The position numbers and the translations under genes are program-made. A stretch of 64,000 bases of DNA from positions 62,001-126,000 of the forward strand of contig SCRN01000033.1 in NCBI GenBank assembly GCA_004322045.1, read 5' to 3'. Source of the stretch: Paraburkholderia sp. Lineage in GTDB: Bacteria > Pseudomonadota > Gammaproteobacteria > Burkholderiales > Burkholderiaceae. A model generated the notes under the pieces. It was not told the origin of the DNA and did no database searches. It saw nothing but the letters and a program-made list of their open reading frames with translations. This document shows, piece by piece, positions 34,363 to 59,615 of this stretch; within the stretch, counting starts at the first letter, position 1; each line of letters starts with the position of its first letter.

Positions 34363-34483
34363 CTGTCATTCTACGCAATTACGTTGCTCCTAGTAGGAAA
34401 GCCTTGTGTTTCATCATGGCAGCACCGAAGTGGCGGAAGCCGGTCAGCGCTGCTGCAGCGTCGATCATAATTGGCTTCTTTTC

Positions 34484-36523: not shown

Positions 36524-36605
36524 TTGCATGCTTGGTGACTGAGGTTCGTAATCGATCTTATCCGCGGGCGGAGCACCGCTATACCGGACATCTACATAAG
36601 CACCT

Positions 36606-42701: not shown

Positions 42702-43223
42702 ATGAGTTTTGCGTTCATTCGCGAGGGCGACACGACCTCGCATGGCGGTCGCGTGCTTGCGTGTTCTCCAGAGAACAAATCAGACGGCGTCGCCATCGCG
42801 CTCTTGGGCGACAAAGTGTCGTGTCCCAAGTGTGGTGGCGTCTATCCGATCGTCGGGGTCAAGAACCTAGGTGTGACGTTCGACGGTCGGCCGGTCGCCT
42901 CGGAAGGCGATACGACCGCATGCGGCGCTACGCTCATCGCCTCGCAAAACAACACGACGGCCGAGCCGACCAGCGGTCCGGGCGGGTCCATCGGCGGTGG
43001 TAAGAGCGTGCTATCGCAAGCGAGCACGGACACGTTCCACCGCGGGCGATTTCAGGTGCTCGACGATGTCACGCGCAAACCCATCGCTGGACACACCTAC
43101 ACCGTCACATCGGCCGACGGCCGAGTGCTCCAAGGTAAAACGGACGCGAACGGATTCACCGACTGGATTGAGGGGCACGACGCTTCATCTCTGTTGTTCC
43201 ACCAGCCGGGAAGCGACGCATGA
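42702..43223 (+). CDS. PAAR-domain type VI secretion spike protein
   Basis: A 173-residue protein with an N-terminal PAAR domain (residues ~1-90, IREGDTTSHGGRVLACS ... VSCPKCGGVYPI ... VASEGDTTACGATLIAS) that caps the VgrG spike, followed by an Ig-like or transthyretin-like C-terminal extension (RGRFQVLDDVTRKPIAGHTYTV). The stop overlaps the ATG of the nuclease gene (ATGA), indicating coupled expression. It probably carries the downstream effector. Confidence 0.9.
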   Translation: MSFAFIREGDTTSHGGRVLACSPENKSDGVAIALLGDKVSCPKCGGVYPIVGVKNLGVTFDGRPVASEGDTTACGATLIASQNNTTAEPTSGPGGSIGGGKSVLSQASTDTFHRGRFQVLDDVTRKPIAGHTYTVTSADGRVLQGKTDANGFTDWIEGHDASSLLFHQPGSDA

Positions 43224-43948
43224 GCGGATATGCCCCGGGATCGTCGTCCGGGGGAATGAGCCCGGGCGACGGTCAAACGACCAAGGTCAGCGTAAGCGCC
43301 GCCCGGCTGTCTCTAAAGGACCGGGAGGTTCTGTGCCACGTCTTCTGCAAATGCAGGTCCATTGGTGTCGCGACGCAGGCCGGGAGGATACAGCGCCAAC
43401 GCTGCGTCGAGCAGCGCCTGGACTTTGCGAATGACGTATCCAAAGATGGAACTGGGGTCCCGACCGAGTACCGCCCGGAGCAGCCGTATGACATGACCGA
43501 AGAGCCGCCGGCGCCGATTATGAATTACGACGATCCGCTGGAGCCTCACTCGAGCGTCCGTCAATGGATTCGGGACGTCTGGCCCAGCAAGGGCAAGAAG
43601 TACCAGTCCGGGGATGTTCGCCGTCCCGACGTAGTGATCGTGAACGATCCGTCGCAACCGCCCGTACAATCGAATATCAAGACGGTCGTGGAGATGAAGT
43701 TTCCAGGGGATCGGTATCGCCCCGATCAGGAGGACGACTACATCGAAATCGCGGGAAGTCCAGCAAAGTTCGCGCACCTCGGCGCCACCGAATGTGGGTG
43801 TGGTGACGATGATGGACAGAAGAAGACGGCGGCTTCTAGGCAGCCCGCGCCGCAATCCGATCTGGACGAACTGTACGGTGGTGGGAGCGCCGCTCCGGGG
43901 GGACCTCCACTCCCACCGATGCCGCCCACCCCAGCCCCTGCTTGGTAA
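43220..43948 (+). CDS. Type VI effector, VRR-NUC-like nuclease
   Basis: A 242-residue protein. The central region (residues ~125-185) has the PD-(D/E)xK arrangement of VRR-NUC nucleases: D137 in RRPDVVIV, E158 and K160 in VVEMKFPGD, Q170 in DQEDDYIEIAG. The N-terminus contains several cysteines (CHVFCKC), and the C-terminus is a Pro/Gly tail. It is encoded between a PAAR protein and a DUF3396 protein, the standard effector slot. It would cut DNA in a rival cell. A Tox-REase-type assignment is possible, since both share the core motif. Confidence 0.85.
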   Translation: MSGYAPGSSSGGMSPGDGQTTKVSVSAARLSLKDREVLCHVFCKCRSIGVATQAGRIQRQRCVEQRLDFANDVSKDGTGVPTEYRPEQPYDMTEEPPAPIMNYDDPLEPHSSVRQWIRDVWPSKGKKYQSGDVRRPDVVIVNDPSQPPVQSNIKTVVEMKFPGDRYRPDQEDDYIEIAGSPAKFAHLGATECGCGDDDGQKKTAASRQPAPQSDLDELYGGGSAAPGGPPLPPMPPTPAPAW

Positions 43949-43957
43949 GTTGATACG

Positions 43958-45139
43958 ATGACGAACGATGAGATCGAAGCCTGGGCCACGGATCCGCGCC
44001 GCGCGGATACCATGCCTTTTGGACTTTACGAACCCGCGCACCGCAAGGGCATCACCGGCGCCGCACTGGTAGTCCGGGGAGTGCTGTATTTCCGCAACGG
44101 ATTCACCGCCGAAGTCAGGCAAGCGCTGGTGCGTTGCTTTGAACAGTACAACGCCGCCATCACGGACTACCACCGCGCCCTGCAAGAAGCGGCCGGCCAA
44201 ACGCCCTCGAAGACCGGCCCCTTGCGCTGGTTCTACGCCGAAGGGGAAGATCCGACCGCATACGACCAGGCCCCGGGGTTCGTACGCCTGGCGCGTACAG
44301 TTCCTGCCGATCAGACGCTCGCCGTTGCGATGACGAGCGCCGAGCACAAGCTGGCCACGGGCTTCTACGATTTCACTGTGTTCGCCCTCAGCGACTGGAA
44401 GGCCGAGCGCAAGCGCGGGCTCGACGGACTCGCCTTTTCCGTGCCGAGAGCGTTCCTCGTGCATCGCCCCGCCGTGTTCCAGGCGATGTTCAACGCTTTC
44501 GCTGAAGCACTGCCGACCGTTCACGGACACGCGGGATTCGCTGTGAACGTACCCCCGATGGATCGCCGGCCCAACGAAGCGAGCGAGTATTTCTACGCGC
44601 GTCGGTTCGGCCCGGGAATCGATGTCGGCGACCCGATGCGTTCAAACGTCCGCAAACTGTTCACCAAGATCAAGACCGTAGATTGGCTGAACGCGCTCGA
44701 CGCGGATCTGGTCCGCGAAATCGGCGGTGCGTCATCGCTCGTGCTCCCTCCTGACTGGTTCATCCGCGAGCCTCTCAAAAACGGAGGTTTGCTTATCCAA
44801 GCGGGCGCCGCGCCTGAATCCGGAATCTCCAACGGCCCGGGAAAGCCTGTCGCCCCGCCTGCGGCGTACGTCCTGCTGAATCAAGCATTGCGCCCGATCG
44901 TGGCGGATACGCTTGACACGCTTCAGGACGGGACGCTCGATAGCACCGCTCCGCTTTTGAGCACGGTCGTTGCCACGGAAGGTTGGTTGCAACGGTTCAA
45001 CGTGCCGGAAGACCAGCTCAATATCTGGTGGGTTGAGCTGCATAAGACGCCCAAGGTTACGGACGAGCGCACGGCCATCGTGGAGCAAACGCGTAAGCTT
45101 CGGGAGCAGATGGGCCTTCCGGTCGAGCCGCGTAGTTGA
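43958..45139 (+). CDS. DUF3396 family immunity protein
   Basis: A 393-residue protein matching the DUF3396 (type VI immunity) pattern: an N-terminal GITGAALVVRGVLYFRNGF, then LRWFYAEGEDPTAYDQAP and the central ASEYFYARRFGPGIDVGDP. It lies ten bases after the nuclease gene, the position expected for the cognate antitoxin that protects the producer. It has no membrane segment, consistent with a cytoplasmic target (DNA). Confidence 0.85.
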   Translation: MTNDEIEAWATDPRRADTMPFGLYEPAHRKGITGAALVVRGVLYFRNGFTAEVRQALVRCFEQYNAAITDYHRALQEAAGQTPSKTGPLRWFYAEGEDPTAYDQAPGFVRLARTVPADQTLAVAMTSAEHKLATGFYDFTVFALSDWKAERKRGLDGLAFSVPRAFLVHRPAVFQAMFNAFAEALPTVHGHAGFAVNVPPMDRRPNEASEYFYARRFGPGIDVGDPMRSNVRKLFTKIKTVDWLNALDADLVREIGGASSLVLPPDWFIREPLKNGGLLIQAGAAPESGISNGPGKPVAPPAAYVLLNQALRPIVADTLDTLQDGTLDSTAPLLSTVVATEGWLQRFNVPEDQLNIWWVELHKTPKVTDERTAIVEQTRKLREQMGLPVEPRS

Positions 45140-45216
45140 GCGTTCATGAACGGGGTAGCGAGAAATCTGCGCCAAGGATTCAAGGGAGATGCATCGCGCA
45201 TCTTCGATGTCGGCTG

Positions 45217-48200
45217 CTACCTTTTCACTGTCACCCAAGATGGAATGTCGATTTGTTTCAGCGTCTCTGTTCCTGACAGCGACAAGTCAACATCGATCCA
45301 GTCATAAAGCGCAGGAGCGCCAGACGCGCTTTGAGCATGAGATCCGGCCGACGGTTGGATAGCGCCGTTATGCCAGAAGGCCGCGGCGCGCGAGGAAACA
45401 GCATCGGCGTCTGGAAAATGCTTCCATACCGCGTCAAAGTTAGCTGCAGTGGGCGTCGTGATGGCCGTTTGAACACTTGACCAGAAACTAGCTTCATCGC
45501 AAGTAGGCTTTTTGAAGCCGCTACTATGAAGCCCAGCTATTGGCGTCACGCCGTTCGACAAAAAAACTGCCTCTTCCGTCTGCTGTGAGTTAACACACTC
45601 AATCAAAGGGAGATAAGCAACGAGTTGCAACGGCACCGGCATGGTTTGAGGCCTTGGTTTCCCTTCCAGCATGTTATATGGATCAATATCTGCAATCACC
45701 ACTGCCTGATCGAATTCACTCAACGCGTCGCTCTTATTGTTATAGTAGATACCTTTCGACCATCCGTGATAAGGGGTGATCGTCGAGAGGTAACCAGGCT
45801 CTACACGCTGAGCTTTCCAACTACCTCGTCCGACAAAGCAGCTTCCACCGACAAGTCCCTTTCCGACTCCGTTGGCGAAAACCGAGGTGGTACCCGCCGC
45901 CAATTGGCAAGCTTGACCGGCAATCCAGTAGTCCGCACTTCGCGATGTCGCGGCAGGTATGGCGAGAATTGATCGCCGAGCTCGGCTTCCATCGCCGGTG
46001 ATTGAGAGATGTTTCGCGAGATCCCTAAGGTCCCTTTCTACTTCGGTGGGATCGCCTGCTTCGCCAAAGCGCCGACGTACATCCACATAGTCGTCGGCCA
46101 TGTGCAGGTAGTTCGCGGGGCTTGAGACAAGAAAGACCTCGGAACAGATTAGCTCAAGGACATGCTTCAGCGGTAAGCGGGTCAGCGAGAGCAGAGCGCT
46201 GACCGCACTTGCCGTCGGTGTCCAACCTGTTTGGTCCTGAAGCTGCTTGGTAAGTTCTTCGGGCTTGAAGAGCGGTGCCAGGGTGCCAGTCAATGGCCGG
46301 AATAGCTCGTCGAGAGCTATGGATCTGTACTTCTTGTGTCGGGAAAACTCAAGAACCAACCCGCGTTCTAAGGGGTCCTGACTGCCGTTGATGTCCTCTG
46401 CGCGTTGATCACCAACTGCCGTCATTTGACGGGCGATTTCCTTTGGAACGGGCCACAACAGCGTGAGTTGAGCGGTCAAATTGTGAGAGGGAGGGTCCTG
46501 CCGGAACTCCATATACGTGCCAGCGAGTACAGCCACCTGCTTGTTCGCTAGATAGACCTTCAGCCATTCGATCGTTTCCCTACGGACCGAGTATTCGGGT
46601 AGCACGAGTAGATCAACCTTGAAAGCTTCACAGCTATCGATGACTCGCTCAAGAAATCGACGACGACGGTGCTCCGCCCAGCTCATCATTTGAACGGGAT
46701 CGAACGTACCCATTTTCCAGTGATGCTCCGAGCCCGTACCTGCCGTTGCGCGGGCGAGCATTTCGTACAGATCTCGTGGCGTAAGCTGCTCTTTCAAACG
46801 AGTCTTGGCTTCATTGCTAAAAGGCCATTGAGACGGACATGCCTCCATCATTGGATGTTTGTATGTGATATCTAGTGACATCTGGAGCAGTGCGATTCGT
46901 ATATGCGCCTCGCGTTTATTTGAGTCGGACCGCGTTTGCCAACTTAGACGTTGCTTATTCCTAAAAGCGCGCGCATCGAAAGATATCGATTTGTGCTGAG
47001 AATTAGTTGGCTTGTCCGCCGAGGGGGCGGCCTCCACTGCGGCATTGACAGCCGACCTTTCTTTAGTCTCAGCAATAATGGCAGAGCTTGGAGCGCGGGT
47101 AGTCGCATTGCTGTCGATCGAAATAGGTGTCGCAGCGCCAGTTGTGGCCTCGCCTAAGCGTTGCGGCTGCGGCGAATCGTCGACGCTTTTCGCCGGGCCT
47201 TGCGCAGCAGGAACATTATTCGATCGATCGTCCTGAGGTGTTTGGCCGCTCACGACGTCGTTGGGTGTCGTCGAGTCGGTCGCGGATTTTTCAAATGCTA
47301 TCGACGCAAAGGGTTCGCCAAGAGCGGACACCGAAAGCAGTCGACTGGAATCTCGGTCATAGACTTCCGACCAGATCCGCAATATACGTCCGTTAAGGAC
47401 CATTTCCTCTATGTGTTTCGCGCTACGCGGGAACTGCGAAATCATCCAGGGCGTGGCTTCCCACGAGCCGTTTCGGGAATCGACAAAGCGCCGAGTTTGC
47501 GCGTTGTACCCGTAAGATGATTCCTTTGCCAAAACCACGTCGAAACCCAACTCGGCGTCAAGCTGCCGGACAAAGGCCGCAGTCGACTCAAGCAAATCGA
47601 AGTCGAGAACGTCGAGTGCTTGATTATTGATGCAATCAAACGGCCACGCCAACAATTCATCAGATTGCTCATGGGCGTGTTCTGCTTGGGCGACCTTCCG
47701 AACGATAGTCTCCAGCAGGCCGTACAGTCCGTCCGAGAGACGATTGGGCGAGGTGCTCTCTCTACGAAGCCGATGCCCCAGATACCGAACAAGAGATCTA
47801 AGTTGATCGACCAAACCTGTCCGCGCGGACTGTCGCCGAGCACCACCAACAACGCTGGTATTGATCGGATCCGGTTGCGAATCAGTTTGGGGGGGAGCGG
47901 CGATGTTCCATTCCGCAGGGAAATCAAAAGCATGATGCGTCTCAAAACTGCCTTGACTGCGTATTGATGCGATCACTCCATCGAGCGCAACGGAGACTCC
48001 CACGCAAACAGTTCCGGCGCATAGGGCCCGCCATGCAGGTTCTTGCGAAACCGCCGGTGCATCACTCTGAGAATGCAATTGCCTCGAAAAGCAGAGAACC
48101 CCCCAGAGATCGCGCCGCAACCCTATCCCATCGCCAGCATTCAGTGCAAGATTCTGCGAGATCGACAAAGGCAAGCGAGAGATTACCCTGCTTGTGAGCT

Positions 48201-51200
48201 CCTTCAGGAACCCCACAACATCCGTGCCGTTCCATAGTTCCCGAAATGACAGATACATCGCTGCAGACTCGGCCTCGATCGCAAGCACATGAATGATTTG
48301 TTGGATGGGGGCTTGCGATTCGTCCGGGAATCCTTCCAGCAGCCGAAGCGAACGCTCAATACTGGATGGCAACCCGATCGCGGAGGTCTGTCTCTTGCTA
48401 ATTCTCGAGTCGGCAAACGCCCCTCGAAGCTTTCGCATTTGAGAGCGCAGCACATATCTCGCGGGATTCCCCAGCGCCGCCGCATCAAGAGCAACTTCGG
48501 TGTCTGCGTCACTGAACTTGGTCACGTCGTCGTGCAGCCCAATAAAATCACTGACAGCCGCGCCGACCCGCCAAAGATCGGCTTCGTAAATAGGTACTTC
48601 GATTGTTCGAAGTGCTCGCCCACCATCTCGGACGAAGGCGCGATTGCCTATCTCCGCCCGCGAAACACCTTCACCGATGACATAGTAGCTGTCACCATTC
48701 GAAAGCTCAGCGATGTAAGGCCACGCAGGGACAAGCTCTAGATCCAAATGCTCATGAGAGAAATGGCGAACAGCCGAGACGATCGACCTATACAGGCGAG
48801 CGGCAGACCTTAGGCTCCCCGCTGGCAAGGATTGTCCCATCGATTCCGTCGATACACGTAAGCGAAGGAAATCCTCGGGCGAAAGCATCGCCTCTAGGCG
48901 ACACACTAGGCCCCCCGTCGCTTGAAGGTGGTGGCGTGTCCAATTCAGTGCCAGGGGGCGAAGATTTTCCTGGGCGTCAGCGCCCACGAACGCAGGAAAT
49001 CCCTGATCAGGGTTGTTCAGTTCAAATGCCTCTAGTCCCCGCGCTACCACTCCACCTTCGTGCGTCGATTCATCGATTAGACAGGAGAACAGTCGTTGTA
49101 CGCGAATGCCCGGAAGCGGCGGAAGGAGGAGGCTGGGCGTGGAAGGTGTCGATGCAGTCGGCGCCAACAAGTGATGGCGCCTCCCAAGACAGGCAAGGAT
49201 TTGATCCCGGGGGACTACGCTTGCTAGCGTCTGCAATGCGATAGCAGAGGTAACGGTTGGACGGCGTTCCGAGCTTTCGGCTTGTTCGCTCGATGGCAAA
49301 TGTTGGGATGGCTGGTCAGGCAGCAGGTCACGAAAAAGACGAACGGCAATGCCCGCGCTGTCACCCTGAGCCGACAAGTTCAGGAACGGCTTTAGGAACG
49401 GTGTTAGTGGGTCATTGTCTACGTTTGTCTCTGTGGCCAGAAGTTCGATCGCCTCATGCATCCACTCGAAGGGTTGCCAAACTTGCACCAGTCTTGCGCG
49501 TTCGGCTTCAGTTCGGACGGTCCGTTCCGCGCTGTGACCGCATGCGCGCTTGGCCTTCCAAGTCAGGATATGAAACCGCGCTTGACGTTGGTACTCTGGC
49601 CCGGACAACGTTTCGTTGAAGACCGAGCTAAAGTTTTGATCAAGGACGAGACTCGCCAACCAGGCGATCCTGCTGCGCCGAACGGCATTCTCTTCGGCCG
49701 TCAATTCACGAACATCGCGGCCTTGTGTATCGAGTAGATGCTCGAGGCCTTCGAGCCCAAACAGCAGCGTCGACTCCCATGAATGTTTCTCGGGTAGCAG
49801 GCGCCAGGACGCTCCCTGTGCGCATTCATTCCACAGGGTTTGATATCGAGACCACGCCGCCGCCGCATCATCTCCTATTTCGCTACCACGCTCCGAGGCA
49901 ATTGCATACCACAGAAGCCGCGCGGCCTTCGGTAGTTCGGATGTGCGAAGATCACGAGCTTGAAAGGCTGTCTTAACCGTTTGAAGAATGGTTGAAAACG
50001 GCGCTTTATACAACTCGACATTGTGGAGCAACTGTAGTGCAGACTGCCGGTCTGTTGTGGGAGCGACGGACCAAAAATCCCACCCGGACTCGCCGTCGCC
50101 GATCAATGGAGGCTCCCATGCCGGACCCGACGCAGCCAAGGCTCGCCCTTGATTTATGTACGTCGAAAACTCATCCGCACTCATTGCGGGAATTTCGTCG
50201 GCCTTGGCGAGAAGTGTCAACTCGAGTGAACGTGCGACTCGATCGATGGACTCGCGAATCTCATTCAGAGTGGCTGGGCTGTCCGCCAGTAAGACGATGT
50301 CATCAACATAGCGGGCATATCCAACGCGGGTCCTCTCCGTGTTGAGTCGCTCCATGATTCGGTTGGCCTCTTGATCGAGCGGAAACAACGCGATCGATCC
50401 AACCCAAGCAGAGAGAAGGGGGCCTTGCGGTATGCCTCTTGTCGGATCCGATCGTTCTTCAACGCCTGTATCCGGCCGCCTGTATGCAACACCAAAGAGG
50501 TGCTCATCCAATTGCTCAAGGACGGCCGTCGCTTTGTCGGCCGCGATAGGTTGGGCGCTTGGCATGCCGAGCAACTCAGCAAAACCAGGAGTGTCGCCGG
50601 TTACGGATTCGATGGCATGCGTCAGGCGCGCCTGCAGACTGTCTCGCACGACGTATCGACGCAATCGGTCGTAGTAGCGCTTCACGTCGAGTCGGACGGC
50701 GTACACATACCCCATCTCCGACACTTGTAGCGAGATCGACTTCATGAAGTCGAGCCAACACTCATGAAAGGGGCGGTACATCCCTTGGGACGATGCAGGC
50801 TGCCGCCCGTCGAGCACATCCATGTCGATCTGATACGCGAAGCTCAACGTTCGGTTACTCAATTCTCCCCAATGGCCTTTTCCATCCAAATCGAATCCGG
50901 TCGTGACCGTACGCCGTTCCTCTCGGTAGTAGCGGACGGCAGGGATGCTTCGGCTGAACGTCGAATCGGAATACGCCAAATGGTCCCAGCGCTCGGTGAG
51001 GATTTCATTCAGCACGTACTGCTGGATCGCGAGATCCTCCGGCCGCGGCATCATTTTGAGTCTTGGCTCTGATCCTCCAAAACTTCTGGGTACCCAAACC
51101 GCGTCGTATGATCCCAGCGGGGCGGCTTGTGTACTGGCCAAGCGTTCGACCAGGAGCGCATTGAAGGCGGTCGCGGCGATGTCGAGGCGTTCCCATCGTG

Positions 51201-52797
51201 GTTCGTCGCAAGGTAGTTCGCCTCGCTTCGAGCCCATGTAGGCCATTAGCCGGGCGTGATTGAGCCGAGCCTGAGCGTCATTGAGGAACTCGTCGGAGAG
51301 TGACCGGTGTGCTTCGTTCTTGACATCTACCAGATACGCTGACCAGTCTCTTAAGGCCTGAGGCTGGTCTTGGGCCCCCGCAGTAGCATCGTTAGCTGGA
51401 GCTAACGGTGCAGCGTCGAGACCAGCGATACGTCTCAATTGAGAGGCGGCCCGTGCGAAGGCACGCATTCGCCGCGAGCGGGGTGCAGCCGACCAGACGG
51501 AGTCGGCCAGAGTTTCGTCAGCGGATGTTCCGAACGCAAATGCCAGAATTGCAGCTGCTGGTTCATAGGTTGACCCAAGCAGGAGTTCCGATGCGGACTC
51601 AGGGGAAAGTCCCGCCAGATAGTCGTTTGGATCCTTGGCGTATTCGCCTTGAACGCCTGCTTCTGTTAGATGTGCAGCGGTAGGCCAACAAAATCTGCAA
51701 TCAACGCCGGCAGCGAGCAGCTTGAGGCAGGCGTCGGCGCTACCTCGGAGTCCTGCCTCGTCCCGGTCGAAGCACACAACTACAGTTATTGTGGTGTCCT
51801 TGCCGGGGAGGCTATCGCGCAAAGTTTTGATCAACTGGGCCTGATGATCGCTGAGGGCGTTCCCCATAACAGCGACAGCATCCAGCCCGCCGGCTTCTAA
51901 GCGCAGCGCGTCTAAAAAGCCTTCGCAGAGATAAAGTGCTTGCTCCTTTTTTCCCTGCTTGGCTCCCTGCTGTATGCGAGCAAATGCTCGGTCCGCTCGG
52001 TAGAGCATCCGAGCTTTAGCGAAGCCACGGGTGAACTGGTATTTCGGGCTCGTCGATTCGGTAGGCCCGCCGACCGAACGAGCTCCGAGACCTACCAACT
52101 GCTTGTTTTCGTCATAGAGGGGGAATACGACCCGTTCGCCGATGAAGAAATCGCCATAATCGGTCGACGTCCCGGCTGCGTTCAGCGGCAGATGAGGGTT
52201 CCGTCCAACGCCCGGGAAGAGGCGTTTAACTAAGTAGGCGTCTTCCAGTAACCCAGCGTTCTCACGCTTTCTCGACTTGTCTCTCTCAGCATCGAGTCGA
52301 CCCGACAGGAAGTTGTTGGTCGCATGGAGAAAGCCCGCCCGCTGGATAACTGCAGGGTCTAGCTTTCGCTCCACTATCCATCCGTCAAGGCGCTGCGCAT
52401 CCGAACCACGCTGGTACATGCTGTACGCGAGCTCAAGCCCTGTGCGGCCGTTCAATCCCGCACCGGACTGGGGGCGTTCGGCACTTGGTAGCCCGGTCGC
52501 CGTCGCGATTGCGAATCCACTCGACAGCCAGTCGACAGCCTCTTTGAAGCCGACATTGAGGCGAGCTTTAACGAGGTCAATCGCGTCGCCGTGCGCGCCA
52601 CAGCTAAAGCAGTGAAAGTGCTGACGGCCTTGTTCTCGGCTTGAATCGATTAGTAACGACGGTGTCTTGTCATCGTGGAATGGACACACCGCCATCGTCC
52701 TCGCACCTTTCTCGATGCGTAGCTCCATGCCGAGACGCTTTGCAACCTCGTCAATCGGGACGCTGGCTAGAAGCCTGTCGTAGTCGATTCTTGCCAC
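45217..52797 (-). CDS. Giant primase-reverse transcriptase-nitrilase fusion protein (DRT1-like)
   Basis: A 2,526-residue protein from GTG 52797; GTG 52920, 18 bases from the upstream stop, would add 41 residues, but conserved primase sequence starts at ARIDYDRLLASVPIDE. Domains: (1) DnaG-like primase with CHC2 zinc finger C38/H41/C63/C66 and TOPRIM E292, D344 and D346. (2) Reverse transcriptase, ~540-900: motif A D704 (RLDVKRYYD), motif B Q791 (RGIPQGPLL), motif C Y830-VDD. (3) Unassigned, mostly helical middle, ~900-1900, ending in a low-complexity linker. (4) Nitrilase domain, ~1985-2500: E2068 (LVLPEYS), K2155/2156 (RHKKY), C2218 (LICSEV). All active sites look intact. RT-nitrilase fusion defines DRT type 1 phage defence; the attached primase is unusual. 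Confidence 0.9.
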   Translation of the reverse strand: MARIDYDRLLASVPIDEVAKRLGMELRIEKGARTMAVCPFHDDKTPSLLIDSSREQGRQHFHCFSCGAHGDAIDLVKARLNVGFKEAVDWLSSGFAIATATGLPSAERPQSGAGLNGRTGLELAYSMYQRGSDAQRLDGWIVERKLDPAVIQRAGFLHATNNFLSGRLDAERDKSRKRENAGLLEDAYLVKRLFPGVGRNPHLPLNAAGTSTDYGDFFIGERVVFPLYDENKQLVGLGARSVGGPTESTSPKYQFTRGFAKARMLYRADRAFARIQQGAKQGKKEQALYLCEGFLDALRLEAGGLDAVAVMGNALSDHQAQLIKTLRDSLPGKDTTITVVVCFDRDEAGLRGSADACLKLLAAGVDCRFCWPTAAHLTEAGVQGEYAKDPNDYLAGLSPESASELLLGSTYEPAAAILAFAFGTSADETLADSVWSAAPRSRRMRAFARAASQLRRIAGLDAAPLAPANDATAGAQDQPQALRDWSAYLVDVKNEAHRSLSDEFLNDAQARLNHARLMAYMGSKRGELPCDEPRWERLDIAATAFNALLVERLASTQAAPLGSYDAVWVPRSFGGSEPRLKMMPRPEDLAIQQYVLNEILTERWDHLAYSDSTFSRSIPAVRYYREERRTVTTGFDLDGKGHWGELSNRTLSFAYQIDMDVLDGRQPASSQGMYRPFHECWLDFMKSISLQVSEMGYVYAVRLDVKRYYDRLRRYVVRDSLQARLTHAIESVTGDTPGFAELLGMPSAQPIAADKATAVLEQLDEHLFGVAYRRPDTGVEERSDPTRGIPQGPLLSAWVGSIALFPLDQEANRIMERLNTERTRVGYARYVDDIVLLADSPATLNEIRESIDRVARSLELTLLAKADEIPAMSADEFSTYINQGRALAASGPAWEPPLIGDGESGWDFWSVAPTTDRQSALQLLHNVELYKAPFSTILQTVKTAFQARDLRTSELPKAARLLWYAIASERGSEIGDDAAAAWSRYQTLWNECAQGASWRLLPEKHSWESTLLFGLEGLEHLLDTQGRDVRELTAEENAVRRSRIAWLASLVLDQNFSSVFNETLSGPEYQRQARFHILTWKAKRACGHSAERTVRTEAERARLVQVWQPFEWMHEAIELLATETNVDNDPLTPFLKPFLNLSAQGDSAGIAVRLFRDLLPDQPSQHLPSSEQAESSERRPTVTSAIALQTLASVVPRDQILACLGRRHHLLAPTASTPSTPSLLLPPLPGIRVQRLFSCLIDESTHEGGVVARGLEAFELNNPDQGFPAFVGADAQENLRPLALNWTRHHLQATGGLVCRLEAMLSPEDFLRLRVSTESMGQSLPAGSLRSAARLYRSIVSAVRHFSHEHLDLELVPAWPYIAELSNGDSYYVIGEGVSRAEIGNRAFVRDGGRALRTIEVPIYEADLWRVGAAVSDFIGLHDDVTKFSDADTEVALDAAALGNPARYVLRSQMRKLRGAFADSRISKRQTSAIGLPSSIERSLRLLEGFPDESQAPIQQIIHVLAIEAESAAMYLSFRELWNGTDVVGFLKELTSRVISRLPLSISQNLALNAGDGIGLRRDLWGVLCFSRQLHSQSDAPAVSQEPAWRALCAGTVCVGVSVALDGVIASIRSQGSFETHHAFDFPAEWNIAAPPQTDSQPDPINTSVVGGARRQSARTGLVDQLRSLVRYLGHRLRRESTSPNRLSDGLYGLLETIVRKVAQAEHAHEQSDELLAWPFDCINNQALDVLDFDLLESTAAFVRQLDAELGFDVVLAKESSYGYNAQTRRFVDSRNGSWEATPWMISQFPRSAKHIEEMVLNGRILRIWSEVYDRDSSRLLSVSALGEPFASIAFEKSATDSTTPNDVVSGQTPQDDRSNNVPAAQGPAKSVDDSPQPQRLGEATTGAATPISIDSNATTRAPSSAIIAETKERSAVNAAVEAAPSADKPTNSQHKSISFDARAFRNKQRLSWQTRSDSNKREAHIRIALLQMSLDITYKHPMMEACPSQWPFSNEAKTRLKEQLTPRDLYEMLARATAGTGSEHHWKMGTFDPVQMMSWAEHRRRRFLERVIDSCEAFKVDLLVLPEYSVRRETIEWLKVYLANKQVAVLAGTYMEFRQDPPSHNLTAQLTLLWPVPKEIARQMTAVGDQRAEDINGSQDPLERGLVLEFSRHKKYRSIALDELFRPLTGTLAPLFKPEELTKQLQDQTGWTPTASAVSALLSLTRLPLKHVLELICSEVFLVSSPANYLHMADDYVDVRRRFGEAGDPTEVERDLRDLAKHLSITGDGSRARRSILAIPAATSRSADYWIAGQACQLAAGTTSVFANGVGKGLVGGSCFVGRGSWKAQRVEPGYLSTITPYHGWSKGIYYNNKSDALSEFDQAVVIADIDPYNMLEGKPRPQTMPVPLQLVAYLPLIECVNSQQTEEAVFLSNGVTPIAGLHSSGFKKPTCDEASFWSSVQTAITTPTAANFDAVWKHFPDADAVSSRAAAFWHNGAIQPSAGSHAQSASGAPALYDWIDVDLSLSGTETLKQIDIPSWVTVKR

Positions 52798-52938
52798 TTG
52801 GTCTTTTCCCTTTTTGCGGCGGATGACGCCGTTCTGAACATTTCTTGCGTTTTTCTGACTGCTCGCTGCGCACTCGGATCGGCAGCTGCGGCGCAATGGA
52901 CAGCTATGAGGCTGTCTCACATTCGATACTGTTCCCGG

Positions 52939-54660
52939 TCAAAGCCCGATGAGCTCGTCCAACAGGCTTTTGCGGTCATGGAGCCGCCAATGACTTTCGA
53001 AGACGGCCAACAGCTCGTTTTGTCTCTGTTCGACTATGGCTGGTGTCCATTCGACTTTGTCGAGGACTTGAGTCGTGATTACGAACGGAGAGATGCCGTT
53101 ACGGGAGAAATACGCCCGCTTCTTTGTAGCGAAGTCGTAGTTGGATGCCGCACTGTTCTTCCTTCTCGTGAGCAGGGCAAGATTTCCGACGCGGTGGACC
53201 CATGTGATTCGGTCCTTCGGATCAGGAAACCATTCCAGCCAGGTGCTGTTCGGTGGTGGGGTTTGCGGCAAAACGTGCTCTACTGTGATCGTATCGTATT
53301 CGTACGTTGCGCCACCCTCGGAGAGCAAGGCATCGAGCCGAAGAAGAACGGCGGACCGAGCGCGCGCCGCAAGTGTGCTGTAGATCGGGCCGTCAAGCGC
53401 GGAGTACACAGCATGTTGCTCGTTCGGCGTTAGTTGAAGCGGCGACTCATCGTTCCAGAGATCGCTGCCCAACTCAAGATGATCAGTTAGGCGAGAAAAT
53501 CGGTCGATGCGTTCATTGATACCAAACTTCGAAATGAGCATCCCGTAGGCCAATCGCTCGAGATCGCGGAAGTACCTTCGCACGATATCCGGCTGCTGCC
53601 GGAACCGCACCATGAATGCCAACGACGGCGGGACCCAGTCAGTAAATTCAAGGCGATTGAGCCATCGTAGGCTCTCGTTGACCTCTTCGGCGTGCGCGGT
53701 GCTTTCATAGGCAGCGTCGAGGACTTCTTCGTAGGAGCGTGCCATTGGCAGCAAGATATCGTCGATGAAACGGACCGGGTTTTTGAGCTCGGTGACGTGA
53801 TCATTGAATTCCTTAAGCAAGGTTGCCTTAGGCTTCGATTTTCGGTAGATCATCCGAATGTGGCTGAACAGGTCACCAAACGTTGTTCGGCCAAGATCAT
53901 CTTCAGCATCCTCCCACTTAGCTGTGTATGCCGCTTTCTGCATGTCGGGAATACTCCCGATGATCTGTGCCTTCAGGATGTCCGTCGCGGAAAGGTCAAG
54001 GCCGCGGCTGTTCAGAACCGAAAATATCCGATAGGCTGAATCGAGATCGGGGGTTGCGACGACAACAAGGTAGCAGCGAGTGACGATGAACTGAGCAAGG
54101 CGGATCCGGTCGTCTTCGGTTAGCTTGTCCAGGCGTGTGTGAAACAGATGCGCGTTCGCGCGGATATTCGACTGGCTGTCCGGCAACGTGTCCTTAAGAT
54201 CGAGTAGTTCCGCAAAGCCTTTCTCGCGCTGCACATAGCGCTGAAAGAAGTCACAATCCCGGTCTCGAAGCGTTAGGCGAAAACGATCCTTCGTGCCATG
54301 AATGGCGCTCCCTTTCTCGTAGATCAGCGAGGTCAGCTCTGTAGCACGGTCTGGCGCGACGCATGCCCGGATAGCGGCCAGCAAGATTGTGAGCGTGGTG
54401 AGACGTTGCTGCCCGTCAACGACGTCCGAGCTGGGGTTAGCCTCGGACTTGATCAGTACGATGCTTCCGAGAAAATACGGTGGCATCTCGTCCACAGCAC
54501 CGCCGTCGGACTGCATGAAACCCGTTAGATCATCAAACAGTTCTCGGGCTTGCTCTGTTGTCCAGGAGTAGGGGCGCTGATAGCCTGGAATGCGGAACAC
54601 GTAGTCGTCGCTGAAGATTTTTGCCAGTGATTGCTCGTGGGCGACTAGAGTCTTGCTCAT
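52939..54660 (-). CDS. GmrSD-like DUF262/DUF1524 nuclease
   Basis: A 573-residue single-chain protein. DUF262 (GmrS-like): FRIPGYQRPYSWT and SDVVDGQQRLTTLTILL, the latter being the NTPase signature. C-terminal DUF1524 (GmrD-like HNH nuclease): TVEHVLPQTP (H462) and VGNLALLTRRKNSAASNYDF. Such proteins restrict phages with modified DNA (type IV restriction) or act in SspE/BREX-like defence. It is directly upstream of the giant RT gene on the same strand (141 bases, or 18 with the longer RT start), so the two may form one system. It could equally be an independent defence gene. Confidence 0.9.
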   Translation of the reverse strand: MSKTLVAHEQSLAKIFSDDYVFRIPGYQRPYSWTTEQARELFDDLTGFMQSDGGAVDEMPPYFLGSIVLIKSEANPSSDVVDGQQRLTTLTILLAAIRACVAPDRATELTSLIYEKGSAIHGTKDRFRLTLRDRDCDFFQRYVQREKGFAELLDLKDTLPDSQSNIRANAHLFHTRLDKLTEDDRIRLAQFIVTRCYLVVVATPDLDSAYRIFSVLNSRGLDLSATDILKAQIIGSIPDMQKAAYTAKWEDAEDDLGRTTFGDLFSHIRMIYRKSKPKATLLKEFNDHVTELKNPVRFIDDILLPMARSYEEVLDAAYESTAHAEEVNESLRWLNRLEFTDWVPPSLAFMVRFRQQPDIVRRYFRDLERLAYGMLISKFGINERIDRFSRLTDHLELGSDLWNDESPLQLTPNEQHAVYSALDGPIYSTLAARARSAVLLRLDALLSEGGATYEYDTITVEHVLPQTPPPNSTWLEWFPDPKDRITWVHRVGNLALLTRRKNSAASNYDFATKKRAYFSRNGISPFVITTQVLDKVEWTPAIVEQRQNELLAVFESHWRLHDRKSLLDELIGL

Positions 54661-54734
54661 TCGTAATCTCGCTGAAAGACTGCATTGTCATAGCGCAAAC
54701 CTAACAAACGCGAAAGGAGAATCCGCGCGATGAG

Positions 54735-55046
54735 TCAGGGCAAAGTGTCTGCTTCCTGCCAGATGGTGGTGGGCCGCGTATGTGCTTGTTCGACGGACCC
54801 CGACAGGTCGGCAGTGCGTGACCAAAGTGTGCCGTCTTTGTTCAGTGAGGCGTGGGAAAGAGTGCCGGTGAAACGATGATCGGGGGTTTCAGTGATGTGG
54901 AGCAGCGTTGTTTCGTAGGCAGCGTGCGACACATATGCTCCCGACGCGGAATCGTCCTCGCGCGCCGTGGCGCGCTGGGCGTCGCCGATGATCGCTGGTA
55001 CCCAGGCACCTACGCCCGAGCCATGGTTCCTGAGTTCGTTCCGCAT
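54735..55046 (-). CDS. Hypothetical small protein
   Basis: A 103-residue protein between the second recombinase and the DUF262 gene, all on the same strand. GGGGG lies before the ATG. The sequence (YVSHAAYETTLLHITETPDHRFTGTLSH) looks beta-rich and soluble; no family is recognised. Tandem position suggests co-transcription with its neighbours. Confidence 0.5.
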   Translation of the reverse strand: MRNELRNHGSGVGAWVPAIIGDAQRATAREDDSASGAYVSHAAYETTLLHITETPDHRFTGTLSHASLNKDGTLWSRTADLSGSVEQAHTRPTTIWQEADTLP

Positions 55047-55153
55047 GTCGCCCCCGTATGCGCCGTTCTTTTATTCCGACAGTATAGCCAGACAGCGGCC
55101 ACGACGACATCGCGGTGAAGGGCGGAAGAGGCCACTATCGGCATCGGGGCTAA

Positions 55154-56107
55154 TCAGTACGACACTTTGAATGTCGGCGAATCTTCGGACCGGTGCTGGC
55201 GCCTGTCGTAGAGGCGGGTCGTGGAGATATTCGCGTGCCCGAGCCAGTGCTGAACTCGCGCGATATCGGCCTCGTGTTCCAACGCGTTCGTCGCCGCCGT
55301 TGCGCGCAGGCCGTGAACGCCGAGGCCGTCGATGGCGATGCCGGTGTGCGCCGCGTAGTTCCGCACGCACTTGTAGACACCATCGCCGGTCATCGGCCGG
55401 TCGGTGTGTCGTACTGGTTGAAAAAGTGGCGCGTGGGCTACCGAGCTGTGTCCTGCCGCTTCTAGGTACATATGCAGGCGTTCTGCGCTTGCCGGATGCA
55501 GTGGGACGTGTCGCACCTTATTTCCCTTGCCGTGTATGCGCAGGTGCGGCACACCGCGCCGGTCGTGGATGTCGCGGACCTTTAGCAAGCACAGCTCCTC
55601 GCGACGCAGGCCGTGATAGAGCAGCACGGCGAGCATCGCACGATCGCGCTCGCCTTTCAACGTATCCGGATCGGGCGCATCAAGCAGCGCACGAGCCTGG
55701 TAATCGCCGAGCGCCGGTGTTTTACCCTCGTTGCCGTTGCCGCGGGGCCTTTTCACGCCAGCGACGGGGTTCAGCAGGACCGCGTTACGTTCGCACAGGT
55801 AATCGAACAGCGACGACAGCGCGGCTAGCTTGCGTCGGATCGTCGCGCCGGACAACTGGCGAGCCTCAAGGCGCTTTCGCCACGCGAGAACATGCGCACG
55901 CGTGACGGTGCGAAGCTCGTCCACCTGCGCGATGCCTGTGAATGTCATGAAGTCTCGCAAGTCGATCTGGTACGCGCGCCGCGTGCGGGGATTGTCGAGG
56001 TTGGCGAACCATTCGGCCTCTGGCGGCACGTTCCCGAGTTGGTAGAATTCTGCGGCGGTGAGCTGACGGCTGTCGGCGCGCGCGATGGGTGTCAGTCTGT
56101 TCGGCAC
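55154..56107 (-). CDS. Tyrosine recombinase (XerC/D-like)
   Basis: A 317-residue recombinase with an N-terminal SAM-like core-binding domain ([18 protein letters not shown]) and a catalytic domain: R168 (HGLRREEL), K195-region [10 protein letters not shown]265/R268 (HGLRATA), H291 (LGHANI) and Y300 (TTRLYDRR), all present. It lacks the DUF4102 domain of the element integrase and lies 8 kb from the element's right end, so it may resolve multimers, or belong to a nested element. A perfect inverted repeat lies 114 bases upstream. Confidence 0.9.
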
Positions 56108-56220
56108 GGTTATCTCTGGAGGAGAGCCGGGGAGGCCGTGCGCGCAAATCAGCGGTGAAATCGAATCGTTGCCGGTAGCTGAACGCCGAAGCGCACCGCT
56201 GTTTGCGGCGCACGGTCGCT

Positions 56221-56242
56221 ATTGATAACGTATTTTATCAAT
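56221..56242. promoter_or_regulatory. Inverted repeat upstream of the second recombinase
   Basis: ATTGATAA and TTATCAAT are separated by six bases, perfect eight-base arms, in AT-rich DNA upstream of the recombinase at 56107. This could be an operator or a recombination site. Confidence 0.5.
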
Positions 56243-56377
56243 ACTTAATCGGCGATAGCATATACGCTAACTTTGGCATATAGCGCCTCGGGGCCATGCC
56301 GATAGGCCCCGAGCAAGAAGAGGCGAGTGGTGTGATTCCGAGGGCACAACGTGCGGCACAACCGCGCATGTTCAACG

Positions 56378-56508
56378 GTTGCACAATTGCACGATTGCAG
56401 GCCGGGTCGCGTATGTAGCCAGTGCGCGGCTAGGGAAATGCCTTCTGTTACGATCTGCGGATCTGCATATGCCGCCGGGGTGCGCATTCGTGCAATCAAG
56501 CAATCAGG
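56378..56508. repeat. Iteron array A
   Basis: Three direct 8-bp units occur at 56378-56400 (GTTGCACA, ATTGCACG, ATTGCAGG), then two inverted units at 56492-56507 (GCAATCAA, GCAATCAG). A box, AGTAGCTCACAGTCGTTCA, follows at 56571-56589, just ahead of the Abi-C gene; array B has the same order and a 17/19 match to the box. These are likely binding sites of the element's replication protein or a shared regulator. Confidence 0.65.
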
Positions 56509-56620: not shown

Positions 56621-57442
56621 ATGGCAAGCCGACCTCCACTGACCGACGCAATCATCGTTGCGCTTTCTCGTCTTGTTGACGATTCGCAAACCGACAAGCG
56701 GGAGCCGAGTCATTCGGACATTGAATTCCAGATTGACCGGGCACAGCTAGCGGCTGCCGATCCGGGCAGGCAAGGAAAGCCCGTGGGAAAGTCCAAGCGC
56801 GTGAGGGGGACATTGAGCTGGGCGTTGTCGAACAATCTACCGGCGGGTGAAACACTCGCAGCCGGATTGATCGCGACCGTTCAAGGCTACGGCGGTTTCC
56901 GCCCCGAGTCGACGAACTATTGCGGTGCTGATGCAATCGCGAACCTTGCTTCGGCCTTGGCATTGCAGGGCTGGGAACTGACGTCAGACGGCGGCTTGCA
57001 GCCTCGGGTTCTCGCATCACTTTCCGGTAGGGAACTGACTTCCGCGTTGCGCGCGTATGCACAGCGCGCGCAACAAGGCTCCCTGGATAGTCCGCTGCTC
57101 GCTGGAACGGCTAAGGACCTCCTTGAAGCAACGGCAGCTCATGTATTGATGCAGAAGTGGGGGAGCAGCGCGACCAGTTCCAATTTCCCGACGTTGCTCG
57201 GGCAAGCGTTCACGGCTCTTGGATTTGCGACCCCCAGCGATCCCGTTGCGCCTGGAGAGCCGGCGAATAAGCGCGTTGAGCGAGAGGCATATGCGCTTGG
57301 GTGCGCTTTAAACGCACTTCGAAATAAGGAGGGGACGGGGCATGGCCGCCCTTGGGACAGCAGCATTACTACGTCGCAGGCGCGCTTTGCAATCGAATCC
57401 ATGGGCAGCATCGCGCGGCTCATGCTTGACGCGCTGCCGTAG
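56621..57442 (+). CDS. Abi-C (abortive infection C-terminal domain) protein
   Basis: A 273-residue protein. The last 50 residues (LNALRNKEGTGHGRPWDSS ... ARFAIESMGSIARLMLD) match the Abi_C domain found in several abortive-infection proteins; the RNKxGTGHGR motif is the hallmark. The N-terminal part is helical with no recognised domain. There is no membrane segment. It lies 38 bases before a P-loop NTPase gene on the same strand, which suggests a two-gene defence unit, and has iteron array A upstream. Confidence 0.82.
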   Translation: MASRPPLTDAIIVALSRLVDDSQTDKREPSHSDIEFQIDRAQLAAADPGRQGKPVGKSKRVRGTLSWALSNNLPAGETLAAGLIATVQGYGGFRPESTNYCGADAIANLASALALQGWELTSDGGLQPRVLASLSGRELTSALRAYAQRAQQGSLDSPLLAGTAKDLLEATAAHVLMQKWGSSATSSNFPTLLGQAFTALGFATPSDPVAPGEPANKRVEREAYALGCALNALRNKEGTGHGRPWDSSITTSQARFAIESMGSIARLMLDALP

Positions 57443-57480
57443 AAGTACGCTCATCAGTTCGGTCGAAGGTCGGAGCGACA

Positions 57481-59268
57481 ATGACATACCAACTCACGCG
57501 CGAATCTCTGATTGAGAGCCTCGCGGACGAAACGACGACTCTCTGTATTCACGGGGCCTGGGGGGCTGGGAAGACGCATCTCTGGCGAGAGGTCGAAAAG
57601 AATGCGCTCCCGGAGCGTTGGAAAGGTCGGGTTGCATATGCGTCCGTTTTCGGGGCGAACTCACTCGTCGAAATTAAGCAACGTGCATGTCTGTCGGCAG
57701 CGGAGTCTTACGTCAACCGCCCCTTAGCTACGCCCACGATAGTTCAGGGGCTGCGCGATAGGTATCCGGCTTTCGTGGAGACTGTCGCCCGGCTAATTGT
57801 CGGGTTCAAGACGCGATTTGCCGAAGAATGGACCAGCCTCTTGCGCCTTTTCGGCAGAACCGGTCCGCTGGCTGAGACTAATGCCCCATACCTCGCACGC
57901 GTGATGGCAAGTCTCGTTACAGACGGCTTTTTCAACCAGAAGCTGGTTGTTCTCGATGATGTCGAGCGGATCGGAAAAGACCTTCCTCTCGATGCATTGA
58001 TAGGATGGGTCGACTACCTGACGCAGAGCCGCCAATGCAAGGTACTTCTGATTTTGAACGAAGATGCAATTCAGGCCGAGGACCAAAGGGCGGCATGGTG
58101 CCGATATCGAGAGAAAGTAATCGACCGCGACGTTGCCCTCGTTGTTACGCCGACTGATGCTGTACGTCTGGCGTCAGATGGTTCGACGGTGGCCGACATT
58201 GAGGGCATCGTGAGAGATGCCGAAGCGCTTCAACTCACAAACATCAGAGTGATCAAGCGAGCGTTGGCCATCGTCGAACGTCTAGATAAGAAATTCGGGA
58301 TCGTGAATCGTAGCCTGGAGCGTGCTGCGGCCTCGTCCGTCGTGATGCTGACTGCTGCCCACTACAACGCGATACCGGATGGCCCCGACATTACGTACAT
58401 CCTCGGCCGTGGAGAGTTCGCCGCATTAGTTGAGGCGCAAAACGGCGGTGACGAGCAGGAGCGGAAATGGGCGGCCCTGCTTTCTCGCTATCACTGGTCC
58501 CATGTCGACGATTTCGATCGTGCAGTCGTGAAGCTACTCGATACTGGCTTGGTCGATGCTGCACTGTTTGAGAGTCACTTTGAGAACTGGGAGCGTGATC
58601 TCAGAATCGAAGGCGCGCGTTCCCGGTTGCGCGCTGCTGGTGAGGTCGTCCATCGCAACTTCTCTCGGAGCGATCAGGATGCACTCCATGCTTTGATGGA
58701 ACTTCTCCCCGATGTGCCGTTGTATGGGCTTGCCGACATACTGAGCGTTTTGGCTTTGCTGCACGGGCTTGTCCACGATACACAGGCGGCTGAGTTCCGG
58801 AATCAATGGCTCGATCTTCTTCGTCGGGGAGATATTCGCATGTCGGAAGACGGATTCGAGTCTTCCATTCAATCGATCGGTAACCTTGACGAAGAACTCA
58901 TTTCAAAGACGAGAGATATCTTGAAATCGCGGTCTGAGTTGCCAGGGTTGTCCGAGGTTCTCCTGTCGATCCGCCGGAGCGGGGGCTGGTCTGAACGAGA
59001 CATTACGGTTTTGCGTGCCGCTACCGTCGACGACTACGTTGCGATGCTGACGACGCTTATCAGCGATGACTTGCACGATGTGCTGTATCAGTGTCTACAA
59101 TGGGTTCCGAATCCACCGGAGGGAACGGGTGAGTCGATGGACCGATTCGTCCAAGCATGCCGCATTGTCGCTGATAGAAGCGTGACAAATCGCTACGCGC
59201 TGCAGAATCTGTTCGGCCGCTACCAGGTTCGCCAGCTATTAGAGGATGTCGAGGGTGGAAACCGCTGA
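57481..59268 (+). CDS. KAP-like P-loop NTPase
   Basis: A 595-residue protein. Walker A GAWGAGKTH (residues ~25-33), Walker B KLVVLDDVERI (~155-165) and a sensor region VLLILNEDAI place it in the STAND/KAP-like NTPase group. The remaining 350 residues are helical without recognised repeats. GGAG lies five bases before the ATG. Paired with Abi-C, it may sense phage and trigger the partner, as NTPase sensors do in many anti-phage systems. No membrane helices are evident, unlike many KAP proteins. Confidence 0.82.
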   Translation: MTYQLTRESLIESLADETTTLCIHGAWGAGKTHLWREVEKNALPERWKGRVAYASVFGANSLVEIKQRACLSAAESYVNRPLATPTIVQGLRDRYPAFVETVARLIVGFKTRFAEEWTSLLRLFGRTGPLAETNAPYLARVMASLVTDGFFNQKLVVLDDVERIGKDLPLDALIGWVDYLTQSRQCKVLLILNEDAIQAEDQRAAWCRYREKVIDRDVALVVTPTDAVRLASDGSTVADIEGIVRDAEALQLTNIRVIKRALAIVERLDKKFGIVNRSLERAAASSVVMLTAAHYNAIPDGPDITYILGRGEFAALVEAQNGGDEQERKWAALLSRYHWSHVDDFDRAVVKLLDTGLVDAALFESHFENWERDLRIEGARSRLRAAGEVVHRNFSRSDQDALHALMELLPDVPLYGLADILSVLALLHGLVHDTQAAEFRNQWLDLLRRGDIRMSEDGFESSIQSIGNLDEELISKTRDILKSRSELPGLSEVLLSIRRSGGWSERDITVLRAATVDDYVAMLTTLISDDLHDVLYQCLQWVPNPPEGTGESMDRFVQACRIVADRSVTNRYALQNLFGRYQVRQLLEDVEGGNR

Positions 59269-59360
59269 GATGGGCAGCGGCGCGACAGGGCCGCGGTGGT
59301 CTTGGGCATAACTCGGTTGCTTGCCGCGATTTGCTGCGTGTGGGTGGCCGCGCTCAACCG

Positions 59361-59460
59361 GATTGCATGATTGCGCGATTGCACGTTCGCAGCCTCAAAG
59401 CTTGCTTGCCGACGGAGGCACATTCCGTAACCTAGCCGTTGAGCAATGGAAGCAATCCTG
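59361..59460. repeat. Iteron array B
   Basis: Direct 8-bp units GATTGCAT, GATTGCGC, GATTGCAC and a degenerate fourth run from 59361 to 59392. Two inverted units, GCAATGGA and GCAATCCT, follow around 59443-59460. The box AGTAGCTAACACTCGTTCA at 59504-59522 is 17/19 identical to the one after array A. It lies upstream of the replication gene. Confidence 0.65.
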
Positions 59461-59615
59461 CGATCGCACGGGGAGCGCATCAGCGGCTACAGCATGTTTT
59501 TATAGTAGCTAACACTCGTTCAGTTTTCCGGTACCAATTCGAACAATTCAAGTCATAGGCTTCTCCAGCTTTTCGTTAAAGGTCCTACTCAGCCACCAAT
59601 GGAAGGGTAGAACCT

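Follow-up and report, generated by a model that had tools for sequence, protein, structure and literature searches.

Can a single polypeptide that joins a primase, a reverse transcriptase (RT) and a nitrilase be placed among the known defense RTs, and what would it do with three such modules? The question is raised by a gene on a 64,000-nucleotide stretch of Paraburkholderia sp. DNA (GenBank assembly GCA_004322045.1, contig SCRN01000033.1, positions 62,001 to 126,000), which is referred to below as the window. A preliminary description, drawn from the letters of this stretch, had read the gene as an extended DRT type 1 (DRT1, UG1) system. Here, we report that the gene is a member of UG29, a class named in a 2023 defense database (PADLOC), and that the triple fusion is, by comparison of sequences, real, intact and conserved.

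45217..52797, minus strand: UG29 gene, a single frame of 2,526 codons from the GTG at 52797 (PADLOC RT_UG29, 2,645 bits)

The PADLOC profile RT_UG29 (PDLC03767) is matched by residues 43-2563 over profile positions 2-2278 of 2280 with 2,645 bits, the RT lying at profile positions 438-906 and the nitrilase region at 1774-2278. This was the top match in the search of the protein against RT (UG/Abi) families that had been recommended for this locus. The next match, RTasDnaG-like, falls on the primase with 171 bits, and the other PADLOC matches (among 25 of 33 families listed) cover an RT or nitrilase stretch only. A whole-length match to Drt1a is absent, its best stretch being residues 726-898 with 38.7 bits over profile positions 186-332 of 1176. 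Because RT_UG29 matches nearly the whole length and Drt1a the RT alone, the gene is not DRT1, and membership in an extended DRT1/UG1 system was rejected. The UG29 profile itself describes the triple fusion and is filed among the UG/Abi (DRT) defense RTs; no difference between the gene and this class was found. The fusion, which had been thought undescribed, already carries a name, and such a named database hit is largely what the preliminary description itself had listed as speaking against it. The name UG29 and the class scheme reportedly originate from Mestre et al. 2022. In the literature searched, with most subscription papers outside its reach, no paper was found that applies UG29 to a bacterial RT, and none naming a combination of primase, RT and nitrilase was found by title or abstract start.

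The profile RTasDnaG-like (PDLC03800, 550 positions) deserves a separate remark. Besides the UG29 primase, matched at 47-377, it covers at 364-546, with 107.6 bits for Polaromonas, the C-terminal end of the nitrilase regions. Two explanations offer themselves: there is a shorter protein made of primase and nitrilase, or truncated UG29 proteins went into the construction of the profile. A search of plasmids for a separate protein of this kind returned just the two UG29 genes already known.

The minus strand is one open frame without a stop over 45217..52920 (2,567 codons counted from a GTG at 52920), the plus-strand reading of 45217..52797 contains many stops, and the window sequence contains zero N. 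The GTG at 52797 is more likely the true start than that at 52920, because conservation across relatives starts there and because in four relatives (Pseudomonas sp. M47T1, Hydrogenophaga, Polaromonas and genome G897) the earliest start codon available lies at the corresponding position. Residues are nevertheless counted here from GTG 52920; subtraction of 41 gives the numbering of the preliminary description, whose residue positions proved correct (its E292, D832 and C2218 are E333, D873 and C2259 here). Its single intact polypeptide of 2,526 residues agrees with the open minus-strand frame and with the existence of relatives carrying the same fusion.

The fusion is kept in 13 other genes, 12 of them in a single open frame and one (Hydrogenophaga) split over two contig ends, for which residues were read from whichever half covers them. 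The 14-gene set used throughout comprises the window gene and those of Albitalea terrae, Pseudomonas rhodesiae, P. sp. M47T1, P. folii, Hydrogenophaga pseudoflava, Polaromonas naphthalenivorans (plasmid pPNAP05), Sphingomonas aerolata (plasmid) and six further genomes. The 12 unbroken relatives have 2,458 to 2,614 residues (the Sphingomonas gene is cut by the end of its record) and are 26-72% identical to the window protein. Ratios of nonsynonymous to synonymous substitution rates (dN/dS) in the pairs G984/G934 and P. rhodesiae/P. folii are 0.03-0.15 in primase, RT, middle region and nitrilase, 0.11-0.18 in the C-terminal end and 0.70-0.76 in a linker; a third pair, Albitalea/window, has saturated synonymous sites, and no dN/dS could be computed for its nitrilase. 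Trees of primase, RT, middle region and nitrilase, calculated for 13 genes with Hydrogenophaga omitted, agree in 9-10 of 10 splits, with correlations of 0.93 or more between their distances. Since the domain trees agree to this extent and the modules are under purifying selection, the fusion most likely arose once, before the spread of these genes, and every module has been retained.

UG29 genes are rare. Counting the own genome in each case (G417 for the family of G417), UG29 was present in 6 of 398 genomes of the own family, in 1 of 61 genomes of G417's family, in 1 of 369 genomes of the class and in 1 of 11 genomes listed as the same genus. Full-length UG29 was found in 2 of 300 genomes of the order, where 10 of the 12 matches are short RT matches. 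In the phylum, 387 of 398 genomes gave a match, mostly via DnaG and, among the matches listed, with 207 bits at most, versus 2,645 for the own gene. Phages and viral contigs contained no full-length relative and no match to the nitrilase domain; viral contigs gave 14 short RT matches, and among phages one record matched. For Drt1a, none of 200 genomes of the order matched at 1e-100, with the control likewise without a match, and 6 of 200 genomes of the phylum matched at 1e-50. One record filed as contig_3 of cyanophage AS-1 (DQ115810.1, positions 1-2438) holds a partial UG29 gene beside another long frame; across 481 aligned positions the fragment and the Polaromonas protein share 54% identity, and the record may represent bacterial DNA in a phage preparation.

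At the N-terminus, a DnaG-like primase with zinc finger and TOPRIM domain had been recognized, and this assignment was confirmed.

52507..52779, minus strand: DnaG-type zinc-binding domain, residues 48-138 (Pfam PF01807, 1.5e-16; C79, H82, C104 and C107 invariant)
51685..52161, minus strand: DnaG catalytic core / TOPRIM, residues 254-412 (R263, R281, K293, E333, D337, D385, D387)

On the window protein, Pfam gave Zn_ribbon_DnaG (1.5e-16), Toprim_2 (6.3e-8), Toprim_4 (8.9e-7) and, under its cut-off, DNAG_N (5.4e-5), and no other primase type appeared in Pfam up to E 1. A profile of the 14 relatives matched Aquifex DnaG (2au3) at 4e-39. The zinc ligands C79, H82, C104 and C107 are the same in 14/14 UG29 proteins and 30/30 DnaG sequences, as are R263, R281, K293, E333, D337, D385, D387 and D430, the last of which lies slightly past the core and is conserved along with it. 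Altogether, 12 of 13 primase residues compared are identical throughout both groups, and position 433 varies in UG29 and DnaG alike. In the tree, UG29 primases form a clade of their own, separate from the 30 DnaG sequences (support 1.0), and they miss the NCBIfam dnaG cut-off (139.4 versus 283.6 bits, profile positions 28-333 of 414). Zinc finger, catalytic core and TOPRIM are shared with DnaG; the difference lies in the region after the core, which in ordinary DnaG is the helicase-binding C-terminal part and in UG29 is the RT.

50041..51243, minus strand: reverse transcriptase, residues about 560-960 (D745 and YVDD 871-874 invariant)
50299..50310, minus strand: YVDD motif, residues 871-874
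50128..50130, minus strand: residue 931 (Ser in the window), candidate protein-priming site (Ser or Tyr in 14/14)

For the RT, Pfam RVT_1 reached 1.3e-5 on the window protein, which is under the Pfam cut-off, and the profile of the 14 relatives matched the RT structures of DRT2 (9c0i, 7e-9) and DRT1 (9yfd, 1.6e-4). The RT with intact YVDD described earlier is confirmed: the motif and D745 are invariant in the 14 genes, with D745, D873 and D874 unchanged in all of them.

Within this module, residue 931 stands out, being Ser in nine and Tyr in five of the 14 proteins. Its column is the sole one among 2,019 gap-free columns that mixes Tyr with Ser or Thr. The residue is part of a motif [SY][GV]P and, in the window, follows the last D of YVDD by 57 residues. 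In the four DRT1 relatives used (open frames L088-L091 from the Drt1a matches in the phylum; L092 with in-frame stops and the partial L093 and L094 were left out), the Ser of an SGP motif follows the last D of YVDD by 76-78 residues. In DRT1 itself the priming Ser402 is placed 77 residues after D325 in the available text of its description (PMC13275509). Residue 931 may accordingly be regarded as a candidate protein-priming site, a lead only.

49923 down to 46966 of the same strand are occupied by two regions that separate the RT from the C-terminal domain.

47311..49923, minus strand: middle region, residues 1000-1870, without recognized domain, under purifying selection
46966..47283, minus strand: variable linker, residues 1880-1985 (dN/dS about 0.7 in two pairs)

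The middle region, which had been said to lack a recognized domain, indeed gave nothing against PDB sequences up to E 1 and, in Pfam, three families only, each in one member (best 0.034).

45601..46923, minus strand: divergent nitrilase-like domain, residues 2000-2440 (weak profile matches and triad motifs)
46594..46596, minus strand: E2109 of the proposed triad, LPE motif (invariant in 14/14)
46333..46335, minus strand: K2196 of the proposed triad (invariant in 14/14)
46144..46146, minus strand: C2259 of the proposed triad, LICSE (invariant in 14/14)

The C-terminal domain carries Glu, Lys and Cys in the correct order in 14/14 UG29 proteins. PADLOC RT-nitrilase profiles match it in the window protein at 1.3e-5 and 1.3e-4, and up to E 1 RT_UG5-nitrilase, Drt1a and RTasNitrilase match 7, 7 and 4 of the 14 nitrilase regions, all weakly. 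The UG29 motif LLVLPEYSV aligns with LIIFPELSV of DRT1 in the right order (E 3e-4). The spacing from E to C, taken by motif, is 135-172 residues in UG29 versus 89-144 in 26 of 27 ordinary nitrilases, the remaining one having 21, probably from a false motif. Searches of the region in Pfam returned five chance families, the commonest in 3/14 (best 0.013), and a profile search of PDB returned no nitrilase and two chance matches, one of them a nucleoporin. The nitrilase call is the weakest of the domain calls, resting on motifs and weak profile matches.

Several known groups come near this architecture. DRT1 (PDB 9YFD) resembles UG29 in having RT, middle and nitrilase in one chain, with RT motifs and the nitrilase LPE-SV motif colinear; the DRT1 RT region gives a profile match of 3.2e-11, colinear with that of the nitrilase motif. 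The DRT1-like order of RT and nitrilase within the UG/Abi class, as proposed for this gene, is thus supported by colinear profile matches. DRT1 differs in being built of RT, alpha-helical repeat and nitrilase with 1,229 residues, versus 2,526 in the window gene's protein, and no primase is described for it in the part of the article available (PMC13275509), whereas UG29 has one of DnaG type. DRT7 (UG10) shares with UG29 a primase joined to a defense RT. In UG10, however, the primase is AE_Prim_S-like according to the accessible text (PMC8934634), which mentions no nitrilase, and in UG29 it is of DnaG/TOPRIM type. UG5 is an RT with nitrilase, and its nitrilase profile matches 7/14 UG29 nitrilase regions (best 1.5e-5); on the whole window protein only the stretch 2084-2148 matches, and no primase is named in UG5. 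Class 3 UG/Abi RTs combine RT with nitrilase or phosphohydrolase in a multidomain protein, as far as the available text states (PMC13275509). Provided that the weak nitrilase call holds, UG29 would show this domain combination; its RT profile scores mix UG10, UG19, UG35 and Drt1a (among 25 of 66 families listed).

What, then, might the protein do? The answer that we favor, tentatively and at slightly less than an even chance, is a stand-alone one-gene anti-phage protein in which protein-primed DNA comes from the RT, DNA is also what the DnaG module acts upon, and the nitrilase serves as effector. We infer protein-primed DNA that gates a nitrilase because UG29 combines the part order of DRT1 with an extra primase and because of the chemistry reported for DRT1 and DRT7. 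From the accessible text on DRT1, template-free DNA synthesis takes place on its own Ser402, the DNA drives the formation of tetramers and dormant filaments, and abortive infection requires both RT and nitrilase residues (PMC13275509). DRT7 is presented, in the available part of a commentary on a preprint, as a fusion of RT and primase-polymerase with a protein-primed, duplex-like product (PMC13213688). By analogy with DRT1, the UG29 RT would need no RNA template and would start its DNA on a residue of the protein, for which position 931 is a candidate. Through oligomerization by the middle region and the nitrilase, the protein-linked DNA would keep the nitrilase ready but dormant. The DnaG module could enter in two ways: it would lay RNA on the protein-linked strand and so create a duplex, as a DnaG counterpart of the DRT7 primase-polymerase, or it would recognize single-stranded DNA of phage replication as the trigger. 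Infection would then free the nitrilase, an essential small molecule would be attacked and the cell would stop (abortive infection). That one chain builds a covalently anchored RNA:DNA duplex which arms and gates a nitrilase toxin, the RT writing the DNA and the DnaG primase the RNA, is a rather doubtful proposition; if true, it would combine DRT7 chemistry with the DRT1 effector, using a primase recruited independently from another superfamily.

Several observations weigh against protein-primed DNA gating a nitrilase in UG29. Concerning the effector, Pfam CN_hydrolase was found in 0/14 UG29 members up to E 1. For the DRT1 nitrilase motif, the match probability is only 40%; when everything after the primase served as query, the DRT1 nitrilase was matched at E 0.005 with 7%. 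Against 31 ordinary nitrilases the E-value is 1.3e-3, with a probability of 18%; as a control, the best of 20 shuffles reached 0.032 and DRT1's own nitrilase 5.7e-8. Of the nitrilase with intact triad described earlier, the triad residues stand, being invariant, and the domain is far more divergent than that wording implied. Concerning the RT, scoring of this module alone against PADLOC over the family places UG10_large, UG19 and UG35 above Drt1a after UG29 (among 25 of 66 families listed). UG10_large has the best E-value after UG29 (6.1e-22, 14/14 members), and for the window RT alone UG19 scores better than UG10_large, both among the profiles listed. Because the family RT scores better against these three profiles, a close tie to DRT1 appears disfavored. 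Concerning priming, profile comparison leaves residue 931 unaligned with S402 of DRT1, the change between Ser and Tyr requires one base and may be neutral, and the conservation of S402 does not extend to other class 3 DRTs according to PMC13275509. Concerning oligomerization, the UG29 middle region fails to align with that of DRT1 in profile comparison, and for this reason a common oligomer is unproven. Finally, no experiment on any UG29 was found in the literature searched, and the low G+C content of the gene (0.562 versus 0.619 for window bases 1-44000) is unspecific, with values of 0.49-0.54 at 34000-37999 of the same window.

Two further readings of the primase must be considered. It was originally proposed that one protein makes an RNA primer and extends it into cDNA, and in a related form the DnaG module would prime RNA on phage single-stranded DNA and the RT would extend it as a DNA polymerase, yielding useless or signaling DNA without protein priming. 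We regard this as unlikely. The 12 intact DnaG residues, a primase domain under selection and the position of the primase next to the RT in the same chain are in its favor; against it stands the replacement of the helicase-binding C-terminal part of DnaG by the RT. The same reading is in print for UG10 (PMC8934634, accessible text), and CRISPR-associated RTs are reported to self-prime DNA synthesis (PMC10415136, likewise in the part available), but DRT1 (PMC13275509) and DRT7 (PMC13213688) are described as protein-primed in the text available of each. Priming followed by extension is one option of several and had been overstated. Comparably improbable, in our view, is a primase that serves as a sensor, in which zinc finger and TOPRIM bind phage single-stranded DNA or replication intermediates and free the nitrilase, polymerization being dispensable. 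According to PMC13275509, phage T4 escapes DRT1 via a mutated single-stranded DNA helicase, Dda; we take this to mean that such systems may watch replication. The metal-binding acidic and the basic residues of the primase, however, are kept in 14/14 proteins as in 30/30 DnaG, beyond the needs of binding.

A role outside defense, in the replication or repair of a mobile island or plasmid whose own copying would use primase and RT, seems very unlikely. Two of the 13 other genes are on plasmids and an integrase lies near the window gene; against this, the other 11 genes come from records not filed as plasmids and the contexts have no common neighbor. We also know of no replication role that a nitrilase-like end would fit, and this too speaks against such a function. 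An assembly or frame artefact has a negligible probability, for 13 more genes show the same domain order, 12 of them in one unbroken frame, and purifying selection acts on each module, so that the frameshift or assembly join raised earlier as a possible objection is excluded.

The surroundings of the gene bear on the favored stand-alone defense protein as well.

52939..54660, minus strand: GmrSD-type restriction enzyme, a neighbor outside the system (PADLOC Orf5, 620 bits)
55154..56107, minus strand: tyrosine integrase, a neighbor and sign of a mobile island (homologous integrase near the Polaromonas gene)

No neighbor cluster is common to more than two UG29 loci, several of which are short on one side owing to contig ends. 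Within up to 800 bases on each side of the genes, similarity is confined to the two closest pairs, so that no conserved flanking RNA was seen, and Rfam gave no match reaching threshold in 44000-56500. A one-gene system that lacks a conserved RNA template would be expected to show this pattern of flanks and neighbors. The rare and scattered occurrence, the nearby integrase and the defense-like genes fit a horizontally moved defense gene, and the context agrees with such a gene acting alone, without proving it.

Two alternative systems were considered and set aside. An RNA-templated system with a conserved noncoding RNA found no counterpart in the dissimilar flanks or in Rfam, an absence that is not proof. 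A two-gene system with the GmrSD-type gene, which precedes the UG29 start at 52797 by 141 bases on the same strand, was rejected, as no homologue lies near the other UG29 genes (some stretches being short on one side).

Further genes of the region may be recorded here. On the plus strand, 42702-45139 encodes a PAAR protein, a VRR-NUC nuclease and a TsiV immunity protein; together they form a type VI secretion effector-immunity set, which adjoins the UG29 gene and is convergent with it. Beside the integrase, 56621-60797 (also plus strand) contains an Abi_C protein, a G2P-like replication protein and a KAP-like NTPase that weakly matches the PADLOC candidate PDC-S49; this region is perhaps a mobile island with more defense candidates, and a search for direct repeats as island ends gave nothing convincing (among 20 of 59 families listed). 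The neighbors of the UG29 gene on the Polaromonas plasmid pPNAP05 (NC_008761.1) include a non-specific endonuclease, an integrase and a NACHT protein 1,809 residues long.

UG29 is a named class for which no tested function was found in the literature searched. Because one chain carries three enzyme modules, all apparently intact, point mutants can separate them, and residue 931 offers a single-residue probe of protein priming. The class could show whether defense RTs recruited primases twice, AE_Prim_S-like in UG10 and of DnaG type in UG29, and could reveal the action of a primase on protein-linked DNA. It could also show which parts of the DRT1 model hold in a distant nitrilase-bearing relative.

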